Assembly: GCA_964035015.1 (NCBI GenBank) | Contig: OZ036003.1 | Location: 7,139,754 to 7,203,753 of the forward strand | Direction: 5' to 3' | DNA length: 64,000 nt | DNA from: Corallium rubrum | Taxonomy: Eukaryota; Cnidaria; Anthozoa; Scleralcyonacea; Coralliidae | Part shown: positions 54,146 to 59,639 of the stretch, piece by piece | How the letters are laid out: each line of letters starts with the position of its first letter | How positions within the stretch are numbered: the stretch's first letter is position 1 | Notes under the pieces: model-generated | The model's input: the letters and a program-made list of their open reading frames with translations, nothing else | Told to the model about the DNA's origin: nothing | Databases searched by the model: none | Translations under genes and position numbers: made by a program

Positions 54146-54146
<1 letters not shown>

Positions 54147-54289
54147 GTCCGCCTAGCGTTCGGAAGGTCGTGGGTTCGATTCCTACTGGGGTCTGCATTT
54201 TTAAAATGCTTCCCAGTTTGGTTTCGTTACACTCGGAGAACAACCTTATTACCGTTTATCCACCTGAGTGACAACTTCCACCATTCATC
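54146..54289 (+). repeat. tRNA-derived SINE, 5'-truncated
   Basis: Identical or nearly so to 54417-54556 from CGTCCGCCTAGCGTTCGG through the tail AACTTCCACCATTCAT. The A-box half is replaced by the AT array. Confidence 0.88.
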
Positions 54290-54390: not shown

Positions 54391-54556
54391 AGACCGTGTA
54401 GCTCAGTCGGTAGAGCGTCCGCCTAGCGTTCGGAAGGTCGTGGGTTCGATTCCTACTGGGGTCTGCATTTTTAAAATGCTTCCCAGTTTGGTTTCGTTAC
54501 ACTCGGAGAACAACCTTATTACCGTTTATCCACCTGAGTGACAACTTCCACCATTC
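54391..54556 (+). repeat. tRNA-derived SINE with tRNA-Ala(AGC)-like head
   Basis: The head 54391-54464 folds as a tRNA: acceptor AGACCGT/GGGGTCT, D-arm with TAGCTCAGTCGG (A box), anticodon arm TCCGC-CTAGCGT-TCGGA (AGC in the anticodon position) and T-arm GTGGGTTCGATTCCTAC (B box). Acceptor and anticodon stems each have a mismatch, and the tail GCATTTTTAAAATGCTTCCC to CCACCATTCAT is repeated in the copy at 54146. It is therefore a SINE and not a tRNA gene. Confidence 0.85.
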
Positions 54557-54766
54557 ATATATATATATATATATATATTAGTCTAATTGGTGTTCAAGCC
54601 GAATTCAACCCTTAATTCATACCACTCCCTCGACCCAAGATTATTTACTTCAATTATGTCTTTATGACAATAGGATATACCAGACAATGCTAGAAGAGCT
54701 TTCCAGCAGTGTTGTTGTCCGTAGAAATGCATGACAATTAGCCAGGCCTCACGCGTCTCATCTCTA
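54557..54766. other. AT tract and unique DNA before the transposon
   Basis: A short AT array (54557-54579), then unique-looking sequence. The last two bases, TA at 54765-54766, match TA at 58661-58662 and are the likely target duplication of the next element. Confidence 0.6.
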
Positions 54767-55075
54767 TGGTGGCCGAGAACTGCCAGTATATTTTTCTATA
54801 TTTTTTTATAAAAGAAAATGAAATAAAAACAAATTAAAAGCAAAAAGCATATCAAATACGAAATGAAACACTTTCTAAATGTAATTGCTGAATAAAAAGA
54901 TATGTCAATTAAAAATTAAAAGCAAAAGCAAACCCAAATTAAAATGAAATGTAAAACTAAATACAAACAAAAAGTAAACGTTAAAAATTTATCGGACCAG
55001 CGCTGCCACTACCATCATGCATTGCACGCTTAGTATAGCCCGAGGACAACTGGCTGCACGCATTATTAATCTCGC
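54767..55075. repeat. Left terminal inverted repeat
   Basis: AT-rich with an outermost GC-rich TGGTGGCCGAGAACTG. The inner edge carries two direct copies of a 14-bp word, ATTATTAATCTCGC (55062-55075) and ATTATTAATTTCGC (55076-55089), then GCAGTCAC and the kinase start. Iterated subterminal words are common transposase-binding sites; the same stretch must also hold the kinase promoter. Confidence 0.92.
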
Positions 55076-55101
55076 ATTATTAATTTCGCAGTCACGGTAC
55101 C

Positions 55102-56379
55102 ATGACCTCGGAAGCAGGCGAGTCGTGGAAAAAATTCAAAACCGAAATGAAGGGTAAAAGAACACACAAAGGAGGAAAAAGCGGTCCTAAGAACACCATT
55201 CTTGAGAAAGAAGAGTTAGTTGTCCAGCGCCTTAGCTCTGAAGTGGCAGGGAAAGCGCAAAAATATTTGCGTGTCGGTCCGAGAGAGTTCGTGCCATTCG
55301 AGTACGACGAGCTGACGTTCGAAAACTTGAAGATGGCATGCCAACAATATTTTGCTTCGCGATTAGAAAAAAATATGATTTGCGATGTTTTGGCTGGTGA
55401 ACAAGGTCCTTCCTGCAAATCTTTGGATCATATACCAGATTTGCGCGTGATCCATATCAGGTTTATTCCGGGGCTACGGGTCGAACATACAACGTCGCAC
55501 ACAGATGACCGCGATATATTTGAATATCAGCCACCACACAAGAAGAAATCTGCTCCAAACGCTCGATCTGATCCGATAAAAAGAGTCCCAAGTCCGAGTA
55601 AAGTCATCCCAAAAAGTTTGTCGGTTCTGGATATGCTAAAAATCGGGAAAGTTATCAACGATAAGGAGACCGAGGTTATAGAGCTGTTTGCCTTCAACGT
55701 TGACAAGCTGGTGTGGTCGCGATTGGCAGTGTCTGTCGAATTCTCTATTGAAAAAGAATCTTTTGCGCAAGGAGGTTTTCGCGCAGCATTTAAAGCTAAA
55801 AGTAAGACTTCGGGTTTTGAGGACCGAATCTGGGTGGTCAAAAAATATTTAAAGACGGCTGTTGACACCATCGTCGACACAAACCAAACAACCGAACAAC
55901 ATACACGCAAGGTTGTGCAAATGCATATGCTGTCCAAAAACCTAGCAGCCAAGTTGAAAAATGATTTGACACGGGAAGGAAATTTAGAACAGTATGGCGA
56001 AACGTTGGAGTATAAAAAGATATACTTGGGGAAAATGGAAGGAGACAAAATTGTCACTGTAGAAGAGTATGTCGAAGGCGAGTTTTTCAAGTACCTCAAC
56101 AACACGGGCATGTTGTGTGGCGTAGATTCTGACGTGAGGCAGAAGGCAGAGAGCCTTGCTCATTATTCTTATGAGCGTTCAAACAAAGAGCTGATGATTG
56201 TTGATATGCAAGGCAGTGGAACTTGTCTTTTTGATCCAGAGATCGCTTCAAAAGATTTGATGGCGGGTGAGGAATTCTTATTTGCCACTGGCAACTTAAC
56301 CACCACCGCAATCAACAACTTCGTGCAACATCACAAATGTAACGACTTTTGCGTGATGTTAGATTTAGGTAAATTATAG
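55102..56379 (+). CDS. Alpha-type (atypical) protein kinase, transposon-borne
   Basis: A single uninterrupted 425-aa frame. The C-terminal half (about residues 210-425) is a complete alpha-kinase domain of the MHCK/eEF2K/TRPM7 type. ATP-site lysine is in VVKKY (K247/K248). EEYVEGEFFKYLNNTG (321-336) is the family's EE..EG.F.KYNNN.G block. DMQGSG gives D368 and Q370, and FDP gives D378, the catalytic and metal-binding residues. H354 with H411, C413 and C417 (HKCNDFC) forms the structural zinc site, and G397-N398 lie in the late Gly-rich segment. Nothing essential is missing, so it should be a serine/threonine kinase. The N-terminal ~125 residues (FVPFEYDELTFENLKMACQQ, then LAGEQGPSCKSLDHIPDLRV) form an unrecognised, possibly ubiquitin-like, globular region. 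A basic linker (about 145-170) follows and could act in nuclear import. The start ACCATGA lies ~27 bp inside the left terminal repeat, so transcription must begin in the repeat. A long antisense frame (55527-56111) is a shadow. Confidence 0.93.
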   Translation: MTSEAGESWKKFKTEMKGKRTHKGGKSGPKNTILEKEELVVQRLSSEVAGKAQKYLRVGPREFVPFEYDELTFENLKMACQQYFASRLEKNMICDVLAGEQGPSCKSLDHIPDLRVIHIRFIPGLRVEHTTSHTDDRDIFEYQPPHKKKSAPNARSDPIKRVPSPSKVIPKSLSVLDMLKIGKVINDKETEVIELFAFNVDKLVWSRLAVSVEFSIEKESFAQGGFRAAFKAKSKTSGFEDRIWVVKKYLKTAVDTIVDTNQTTEQHTRKVVQMHMLSKNLAAKLKNDLTREGNLEQYGETLEYKKIYLGKMEGDKIVTVEEYVEGEFFKYLNNTGMLCGVDSDVRQKAESLAHYSYERSNKELMIVDMQGSGTCLFDPEIASKDLMAGEEFLFATGNLTTTAINNFVQHHKCNDFCVMLDLGKL

Positions 56380-56526
56380 ACATATTAATACTCGAATACT
56401 TATTATATGCAAACTGATCACAGTTAACACTGAGAGATTTTATTCTACTCAATAAGTATAACTACTTAATAACAACTTATTTTAGTTTACTATGATTAAA
56501 AATTATTTTTGTTGTGTTCAATATAA
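56380..56526. terminator. Shared 3' gap with polyadenylation signals
   Basis: The 147 bp between the two stop codons. For the minus-strand transposase, AATAAA is present at 56444-56439 (TTTATT on plus). For the plus-strand kinase, an ATTAAA variant occurs near 56493. The two 3' ends probably overlap, so convergent transcripts could form double-stranded RNA. Confidence 0.5.
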
Positions 56527-58234
56527 CTAAAAGTTTCTTTTTAAATAAATGAATGCCTCTTTGCAGTCTTCCGGTTTAATATCGGTTACATTTGGCATAA
56601 CAAGTTCGCATCTTTCTCTAAATTCTTGCGATAAGAAATCGTCATCTATTTCGAGGACTCCTGACTGAACTGCAGCTTCTTGTAGTTGCATTTCGGTTAT
56701 TGGTAAACCTGAAGACAATTTAAAATAGTCATTAAAATAAGAAAAAAAATTAAGATATCAAAACGTTTGTCTTTTTATACTAAACAGTGTCCGTGTTAGC
56801 CTGACGCTTCCCAACTTCATTATTTTTAATAATTCATAATGGGAATCAATCATGGATGTGCATATACGTACCACATTCTTCTAGGTCATACTGTTCTGGA
56901 AAATCGTATATATGATTGGGAATTCCGTCAGGTAGCATAGTTTCCTTTTGGGCACGAATTCGGTGTGTATTCCACACAGTATCTTTAAAAGTATCGAGTT
57001 CTTTCTGCAGCATAGGAACCATAATATACGCTAGGAGCATTCTACAAAATTAAAATAAGACGCGAAAAAAAATGTTATAGCGGTTGCATGCATATATCCA
57101 CAAAATTCTCCCGATCTTACCTTTAATATTATTTTGTACAAATTTATGTTTTTTTAATCAGAAGATTGCATGTGTGGTATAGACGGTAAGCAGATGTTTT
57201 TATGACAGTGTGTGAAGAGAGTAAGAGACTCAGTTATTTCAAGAACGCAATCTATAAAGTTAAACGAAAAATTTGTTAAAATTCACAAACCTGTCATTGT
57301 AATTATGAGGGTTGTAGTGACCTTGATCTTTCAACCAATTCAATTTTACTTTAAAAAACTTTTCCATGCGTTCGTGCAGCTCTCTCCACCATCTTTCAAT
57401 CTGGTTGACAAAAAAATGACAGGGCTAATTGGATCAGTACATTCCATTAAATAAGTGACGATCAAAATATCCACTTACTTGATTTGAAGTTGAAGGGCCA
57501 TAGAGTACTGTATCCACTGGATCCATATCGTCTTCGTGATTACGTCGCAGAAAAGCATGCATCGTAGCCATAACTCCGGTCTCCGTTCCTTTGTCCAGTC
57601 TTAACATAGCCGGCATTTTCCGTGTTTCGTACAGGTACTCCAAATACCACCGTCCAATGCGTTTTGGGTCACTATTGGTCACCCAGATTCTAAGCCACAA
57701 CAGTTTTCTGCTGGCAGTATCAATGCAACCATAGATCGCCAGTGGAAATGTTGAGTTCTGATAACCCATCAGCTTATCGTGTCCGTCTAATGAGTGTACC
57801 CAATTTGGTCCTTTAGAAGTAAAATTCCCTTTCTTTCTCCGGATTTTCTTGGCGCCGACACCTCCTCTGCTTTCTAGACCTTCAGGATCAAGATGGCACA
57901 TCACGGCATACACTTGATCTCGGGTGACGTTTAAGTTGTGTTCTTGCCTGATCTTCTTATGCATACTCCGGTAACCTAAAAGTTTTCCTGGGCCTTTCAG
58001 TTCCTTCCGAACAGCATCTTCCACAGTTTCGATGGTGACACAGGGACTGTTGTAAAAAATCTCGAAGTGTCGTAAGCGTCTGTCTAACGAACGAACACTC
58101 CATGGGTACTGTGGAAATTCTTTTTGCAAAAAATCTAACATTTCTGTCCGTTTCAATCCTTGCCTAACATACTTTTCCACGGCTTCCTTTAAAACAAAAT
58201 CGCTTGACCAATTCTCACACCTGTTATCCGTCAT
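56527..58234 (-). CDS. Four-exon DDE integrase-like transposase
   Basis: Reconstructed as exons 58234-57479, 57400-57291, 57041-56872 and 56708-56527 (minus strand), joined length 1218, 405 aa plus stop. All introns are GT-AG (GTAAGT..CCAG, GTTTGT..GTAG, GTACGT..TCAG) and all phases agree. Residues 1-60 look like a helix-turn-helix DNA-binding region. The catalytic core has D150 in SLDGHDK, D214 in LRLDKGTETG and E254 in SNQIERWWRELHERM, a D(63)D(39)E spacing of the retroviral-integrase type. GPSTSNQ just before the Glu is a family hallmark. The Glu lies in exon 2, so the first intron (78 bp) must be removed for a complete catalytic triad. The product presumably cuts and joins the element's ends. 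The start is the first ATG downstream of the right terminal repeat; a short upstream frame (ATG near 58313) exists. Confidence 0.88.
57401..57478 (-). other. Transposase intron 1 (separates catalytic Glu)
   Basis: Donor GTAAGT at 57478-57473, acceptor CAACCAG ending 57401 after a T-rich tract. If retained, translation adds VSGYFDRHLFNGMY and stops, giving a 266-residue protein with the DNA-binding region and two of three catalytic acids. Confidence 0.85.
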
Positions 58235-58309
58235 GATTAAACTGATATAAAACTGATAAAGTATTTTACAATTATGAATTGAATAATATTAATTTTGCGT
58301 AGTTTCCAG

Positions 58310-58660
58310 CATGGTGACTGCGCGCGAGATTAATAATGCGAGATTAATAGTGCGAGATTAATAATGCGTGTAGCCAGTTGTCCTCGGGCTATACTAAGCG
58401 TGCAATGCATGATGGTAGTGGCAGCGCTGGTCCGATAAATTTTTAACGTTTACTTTTAGTTTGTATTTAGTTTTACATTTCATTTTAAATTGGGTTTGCT
58501 TTTGCTTTTAATTTTTAATTGACATATCTTTTTATTCAGCAATTACATTTAGAAAGTGTTTCATTTCGTATTTGATATGCTTTTTGCTTTTAATTTGTTT
58601 TTATTTCATTTTCTTTTATAAAAAAATATAGAAAAATATACTGGCAGTTCTCGGCCACCA
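58310..58660. promoter_or_regulatory. Right terminal repeat and transposase leader
   Basis: Repeat 58352-58660; its inner edge has three copies of the 14-bp ATTA(T/G)TAATCTCGC word (one more than the left side) and then GCAGTCACCATG, the same junction as before the kinase start. Here that ATG opens only a seven-codon frame; the transposase begins 76 bp further in. Both genes thus probably use the same promoter sequence. Confidence 0.6.
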
Positions 58661-58662
58661 TA

Positions 58663-58976
58663 CATCTCCTTACATCTAAAGTGCAACTTCCGTCAGATAT
58701 TGATATTAAAAACCACAAATACAGGAAGTACTACAAACTAATTAACTCTGTTTTGGTTGTTTTTATTGAAAAAAAAACAACAACTGACTAACAAAACTAT
58801 TTTAATCGTATTCTTTGAAAAGTAAATGCATGAGAGTTATATTGGTGATTGGAAGTTTCTTGGAACTCGTATAATTCTATATGTGGATACGATGGAGCTT
58901 AACTTTTAGTTTCTAACAATTGAGTATATGCAGATAATACAACAGAGTGGTTTTAAGCGGCGTGATAGCAACTATA
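58663..58976. other. Non-coding, nothing recognised
   Basis: Unique-looking DNA between two elements. Confidence 0.5.
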
Positions 58977-59304
58977 CAGGGTGTATCAAAAAAAAGGCTA
59001 CCCTTAGAAAATATAATTAACATTCTTTTCAAATAACCTATTGTGTATTGACAGCCCTGGACACCTCTGCAGTCACGGATGCGTAAAAAACAAATGGTCG
59101 TATACACCTGGGAAATTACGATAACTTCTAAACGTATGAAGGAGCATACACTTCAAGTTATCTTAATTTCCCAGGTGTATAAAACCATTTGTTTTTACGC
59201 ATCCGTGACTTCAGAGGTGTCCAGGGCTGTCAATATACAATAGGTTATTTGAAAAGAATGTTAATTATATTTTCTAAGGGTAGCCTTTTTTTTGATACAC
59301 CCTG
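58977..59304. mobile_element. Mariner-like palindromic MITE, copy 2
   Basis: Nearly identical in both arms to 28058-28393, flanked by TA. The interior differs a little, with an extra AAGTTATC..AATTTCCCAGGTG segment inverted around the centre. Confidence 0.9.
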
Positions 59305-59639
59305 TATAATAGGGGCCTCCTAATATAATTAAGCTAATACGAAACAATGAATTGTAATAATTTTTCTTGTCAATACTTTGGAGTAAAGATTGTTTTGATG
59401 ACAAATGTTGCGTTTTTCTGCCAAGTTTTACATGTAAGTTATGAGTTATGTAAATATTTAATGCAATGAAATACATGCCGAGGCGAAGGTGGCACTGTTC
59501 AAGATACTGTTTACCGTATGTCTTCTAAATGCCCACTCAGATTATTATAATAGTAATAAATGGGCATAAATATGTTTCTCGCCTTCGGCTTGGGCTAAAA
59601 TGAGCCTGACGCCTTAAAAAAGCATCCGTATATATAGGT
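59305..59639. other. Non-coding
   Basis: Includes TTTCTCGCCTTCGGCTTGGGC at 59576-59596, like the apical loop word of the H-class hairpins but without a clear stem. No gene. Confidence 0.45.

Follow-up and report, generated by a model that had tools for sequence, protein, structure and literature searches.

An IS3EU DNA transposon of Corallium rubrum carrying an alpha-kinase gene beside its transposase

IS3EU transposons and the Corallium element

IS3EU transposons have been described as having TA..TA termini, usually 6-bp target site duplications and an IS3/IS481-like DDE transposase without the HHCC domain (PMC10045372, in the text available). In the IS3EU families of rusts the ends are TAYGG..CCRTA, the terminal repeats exceed 30 bp and the target duplications are 6 bp long, and TET-positive IS3EU families of fungi carry an alpha-kinase as well, according to the accessible part of a 2025 paper (PMC12730594). 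The original prediction, which knew of no DNA transposon defined by an alpha-kinase, is not upheld on this point. Besides that paper, no report of a DNA transposon with an alpha-kinase was found in the open-access literature; Repbase may already list animal IS3EU families that have the kinase.

Our window, a stretch of 64,000 nucleotides of the Corallium rubrum genome, contains an element (54765–58662) with the published signs of IS3EU. Specifically, its ends are TATGG..CCATA (at 54765 and 58662), it lies between 6-bp target duplications (CATCTC), its terminal inverted repeats (TIRs, 326 nt) exceed 30 bp, and its transposase is of the IS3/IS481-like DDE kind, judged by a Pfam rva_4 match above the cut-off and by motif reading of the DDE residues. 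On these signs we assign it to IS3EU, a cut-and-paste DNA transposon. The span predicted earlier (54767..58660) does correspond to an element, although the true ends lie two bases further out on each side. The prediction of two intact genes inside one pair of long inverted repeats was also confirmed: the TIRs, 98% complementary with 5 mismatches between the arms, enclose a kinase open reading frame and a spliceable transposase gene in convergent orientation (Table 1).

The element is similar to the Repbase IS3EU of PMC10045372 in its TA..TA ends, 6-bp duplication and IS3/IS481-like transposase, but it has a kinase, a word absent from the main text of that paper. With the TET-positive IS3EU of rust fungi and Tuber it shares the TAYGG..CCRTA ends and the opposed orientation of its transposase and alpha-kinase genes, and its duplication has the 6 bp given there for the rust families (PMC12730594). 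The fungal elements have a TET/JBP gene between transposase and kinase, whereas in the Corallium element the stop codons of the two genes lie just 147 bp apart; the likeness is drawn to the published description, in its available part. The pairing of the two genes is thus already in print for fungi. New here are the TET-less form, the tests of co-descent and selection, a conserved N-terminal domain of the kinase protein to which no Pfam family corresponds, and a way in which the misnaming of cnidarian 'TRPM6-like' proteins might be explained. Judged from its sequence, the element appears to be an autonomous IS3EU transposon of a branch that pairs a DDE transposase gene with one for an alpha-kinase.

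Table 1. Coordinates of the element's features in the window
Feature	Position	Strand	Remarks
Target site duplication CATCTC, left	54759..54764	.	exact 6-bp copy
Left TIR	54765..55090	+	begins TATGGTGGCC; stops 12 nt short of the kinase start codon
Alpha-kinase gene	55102..56379	+	425 aa, single exon; Pfam Alpha_kinase
N-terminal domain, conserved, residues 34–123	55201..55470	+	no Pfam match; beta-grasp-like arrangement predicted
Linker, residues 124–172	55471..55617	+	model mostly of low confidence; basic cluster resembling a nuclear localisation signal
Alpha-kinase catalytic domain, residues 222–417	55765..56352	+	carries catalytic and zinc residues
Transposase exon 4	56527..56708	-	includes stop codon
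Transposase exon 3	56872..57041	-	splice by eye
Transposase exon 2	57291..57400	-	holds E254 of the DDE triad, by motif
Transposase exon 1	57479..58234	-	DDE residues D150 and D214, from motif reading
Right TIR	58337..58662	-	ends GGCCACCATA; 103 nt from inner edge to transposase start codon
Target site duplication CATCTC, right	58663..58668	.	exact 6-bp copy

The transposase gene (58234–56527, minus strand) was spliced by eye, using GT..AG sites and the reading frame. With three introns taken out the product has 405 aa and matches the Pfam integrase core rva_4 with 71.2 bits (cut-off 26); a match to HTH_21 stays under its cut-off. The splice boundaries near residues 253, 290 and 346 are seen again as match breaks in several other families, and the transposases of L028, L030 and L033 break at other points than the exon boundaries of the window copy.

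The kinase of the window matches the full Pfam domain Alpha_kinase (PF02816) with a score of 125 bits against a cut-off of 21.3. This domain, with its catalytic and zinc residues, places the protein among the alpha-kinases, and protein kinase activity is predicted. Residues K247, E321, N333, H354, D368, Q370, D378, C413 and C417 are invariant in 29 of 29 open genomic kinase frames and H411 is kept in 28, in a sample that favours functional copies because the frames were picked as open. Based on alignment to solved kinases and general knowledge of the family, we take these ten residues to be those for ATP, catalysis, metal and zinc. The TRPM7 kinase (1ia9), myosin heavy chain kinase A (3lkm) and eEF2K (7shq) have the catalytic fold and the catalytic and zinc-site motifs in common with the element kinase, at about 19–23% identity in structural alignments. 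Compared with these three, the element kinase has a separate N-terminal domain (residues 34–123) that matched no Pfam family and is present in all 8 kinase homologues whose sequences were examined. A basic cluster in the linker occurs in 31 of 53 aligned kinase proteins (mean of 10.8 and maximum of 18 after shuffling). In the basic N-terminal tail, clusters are found in 32 of 53 proteins against a shuffled mean of 28, that is, without excess over composition, which is a point against the nuclear kinase proposed below.

On the left of the element there is an exact 143-nt direct repeat (54146–54288 and 54416–54558) with a tRNA-like part, which may be a tRNA-derived short repeat; ARAGORN places a tRNA-Ala at 54391–54466, overlapping the start of the second copy. 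Directly on the right lies a fold-back repeat (58973–59089 and 59192–59308) with 117-nt arms, 98% complementary, and a 102-nt spacer.

Pairing of the two genes in the genome

Searches of the genome with transposase exon 1 and with the kinase domain gave 148 and 144 matches, which merge into 136 and 132 places, respectively; the places may include second haplotypes or segmental copies of single insertions, and the kinase frames of L034 and L035 are identical. Scoring covered 141 of the 661 transposase candidates and 150 of the 161 for the kinase, which makes both lists partial. Many of the matches to kinase and transposase lie on a few smaller contigs (C82, C196, C238 and C265).

Identity to the window transposase falls into two groups, 34–40% and 48–100%. 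In the upper group 77 of 93 places have a convergent alpha-kinase within 8 kb, where 0.1 would be expected by chance. The lower group, consisting of distant integrases, has none at its 43 places (one within 10 kb). A kinase within 8 kb in a non-convergent arrangement occurs at three places of each group. When only near-full-length exons of the upper group are considered, 48 of 53 are accompanied by a convergent kinase within 8 kb; five have no kinase at this distance, and in two cases among these a kinase lies further away (10.1 and 12.5 kb). Conversely, at 55 of the 132 kinase places no convergent transposase was matched within 8 kb, and 11 of these 55 have a frame that stays open for at least 400 aa. 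Host-type kinases and fragments are among the 55, and with an incomplete transposase list it would be wrong to count every one of them as kinase-only.

The best 20 of the 144 kinase matches (L009–L028) were retrieved with their surroundings. Six belong to the family of the window: the window copy itself (L020), the full copies L017, L018, L021 and L022, and L016 with a truncated kinase. Another six (L015 and L024–L028) are diverged copies with both genes. In L019 the stretch covers a kinase and, of the transposase, just the last exon; L023 matches the element kinase weakly and lacks a transposase. The remaining six (L009–L014) have a kinase without a transposase match in the stretch; five of these kinases are 25–32% identical to that of the element and L013 gives no match. 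L011 shares the alpha-kinase domain with the element kinase and has a von Willebrand A domain by Pfam (L010 looks alike by eye). Unlike the element, neither has a transposase match in its stretch or a repeat pair bounding the kinase.

Eleven copies are bounded by repeats. Eight of them, the window copy included, have an exact 6-bp duplication at TAYGG/CCRTA ends, and the seven besides the window copy lie at other sites of the genome between exact 6-bp duplications of different sequence, so that the layout seen in the window is not due to chance. As the duplications all differ between copies, these are separate insertions, made with both genes present. The duplication of L015 has one mismatch, and none was found at L021 and L028, the latter examined only within 60 nt of its outermost repeat pair. 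In two of the five full-length copies of the window family (L021 and L022) the kinase has a shared stop at codon 9 and the transposase frame is open. The flanks of L021 and L022 differ, so a copy with this stop has moved. Restart at Met17 or a kinase supplied by another copy would explain how the stop is offset.

The original prediction named what a one-off capture would look like, namely intact copies lacking the kinase together with a nearly identical host kinase. This combination was not found: the near-full-length exons are mostly paired, and the kinases of L009–L014 are distant or, in L013, without a match. We saw no sign that a single family had once captured a host alpha-kinase, and the presence of the pair in 10–11 diverged families and at 77 places leaves this reading virtually no chance.

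Among the distant integrases retrieved, L054 and L055 lie on different contigs and share an integrase-like frame of 412 aa whose start is rich in cysteine, next to tandem repeats. No IS3EU ends were found in these two stretches, so this frame may belong to another large element.

Co-descent and selection

Distances between kinases and between transposases are correlated with r of 0.976 over 16 loci with both proteins. Over 11 families the Mantel r is 0.918 (permutation, p 0.0001), but the families may be ten, as the transposases of L025 and L027 are 99% alike; their kinases are 87% alike, and that of L025 reads in two frames. Comparison of the two trees, which the original prediction had proposed, points the same way. 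Four groupings have support of at least 0.90 in both: L024 with L026, L028/L030 with L033, L015 with L025 and L027, and L029 with L031. The deeper branches differ between the trees, with weak support, and we count this against co-descent. L032, for instance, joins L029 and L031 in the kinase tree (0.32) and the L015 group in the transposase tree (0.83).

Regarding selection, the dN/dS of the kinase pooled over nine within-family pairs is 0.34 (28.5 synonymous and 35.5 nonsynonymous changes; binomial P 4.9e-5), the pairs having been chosen from open frames and L050 being used in two of them. For the domains only, the pooled value is 0.27 (P 8.9e-6, nine pairs). Several recent pairs taken singly have a dN/dS near or above 1, which counts against selection. 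The kinase had been predicted to be under selection; the pooled ratio and the catalytic and zinc residues kept across the open frames bear this out. Our results show that kinase and transposase have long descended together and that the kinase is under purifying selection.

Host genes may travel on transposons, and alpha-kinases other than this one serve their hosts in signalling. The kinase might accordingly be beneficial or addictive host cargo, e.g. a stress or immune kinase, selected by the host and merely carried. We regard this as improbable. The kinases without a transposase are far from that of the element, and the pairing spans 10–11 families in which the genes have diverged in step, which is not expected from repeated host captures. 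The original view of the kinase as belonging to the element, not as passing cargo, is upheld by the separate insertions, pairing, co-descent and selection. The five near-full-length exons without a kinase and the early stop in L021 and L022 speak in part against it, and also against the explanation by a two-gene element with a nuclear kinase that is set out below.

Possible role of the kinase and its relatives elsewhere

In the 11 repeat-bounded copies the repeats are 238–368 nt long; they end 12–76 nt upstream of the kinase ATG, which could be placed in 10 of 11 copies, and 40–223 nt upstream of the transposase ATG, placed in 9 of 11. Because each gene is read inwards from a near-identical repeat, we infer one promoter present in two copies and joint expression. 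The left TIR may hold the kinase promoter, and the same promoter sequence at both ends would drive both genes, so that kinase and transposase would be made together. The kinase would then enter the nucleus via its basic linker, and its conserved N-terminal domain would pick its partner. Phosphorylation of chromatin or silencing proteins, a target that we guess, would leave the element free to move. The basic linker hints at a nuclear role, and so does the example of TRPM6/7: according to other work reported in the available part of PMC13143021, their alpha-kinase domains are released by cleavage, move into the nucleus and phosphorylate histones there. The TET gene added in the fungal relatives is thought to undo silencing (PMC12730594, in part), and by analogy a kinase directed at chromatin or silencing would be in keeping. 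Taken as a whole, the explanation by a two-gene IS3EU with twin promoters and a nuclear kinase that helps the transposon past host restraint seems to us about evenly poised between right and wrong.

Our guess for the main rival target of the kinase is the transposase itself. The kinase could act on the transposition complex by phosphorylating the transposase, or itself, as an on/off switch, e.g. for copy-number restraint or a tie to cell state. The tight pairing and co-descent of both genes would fit such a switch, as would the two start codons just inside near-identical repeats. Against it, the distant integrases retrieved have frames of similar length (412, 412 and 390 aa) in stretches without a kinase match, so that such integrases can manage without a kinase. 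We consider action on the transposition complex rather unlikely, though less so than host cargo.

Being old, under selection and present many times over in the genome, the pairing makes the use of a signalling enzyme by a transposon testable. The element also offers an explanation for puzzling alpha-kinase annotations such as the cnidarian 'TRPM6-like' proteins. Matches in the protein database number 317 for the kinase and 553 for the transposase, with 120 listed in each case. Nine of the 120 listed kinase homologues bear an organism name, and we take them to be eight cnidarian proteins and one from Saccoglossus. The label 'TRPM6-like' is found on five of the 120, four cnidarian and one from Saccoglossus. 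Some cnidarian 'TRPM6-like' genes consist of the kinase domain only and are misnamed (PMC13143021, in its available part). We infer that these kinase-only genes may be IS3EU genes.

An alpha-kinase family is highly expanded in rusts, and a table of the same source gives 79 and 39 alpha-kinase genes in two columns, taken to be rusts (PMC4469406, as far as accessible). Part of this expansion may consist of transposon genes. In its widest form our proposal is a major IS3EU branch of animals and probably fungi that has two genes and requires its own nuclear alpha-kinase, aimed by the N-terminal domain without a Pfam family; its kinase gene would account for most of the 'TRPM6-like' and rust expansions. 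We put this forward tentatively, its chances being slightly short of even. Among the matches listed, the closest named relative of the window transposase is from Dendronephthya (68%), as is that of the L011 kinase (59%).
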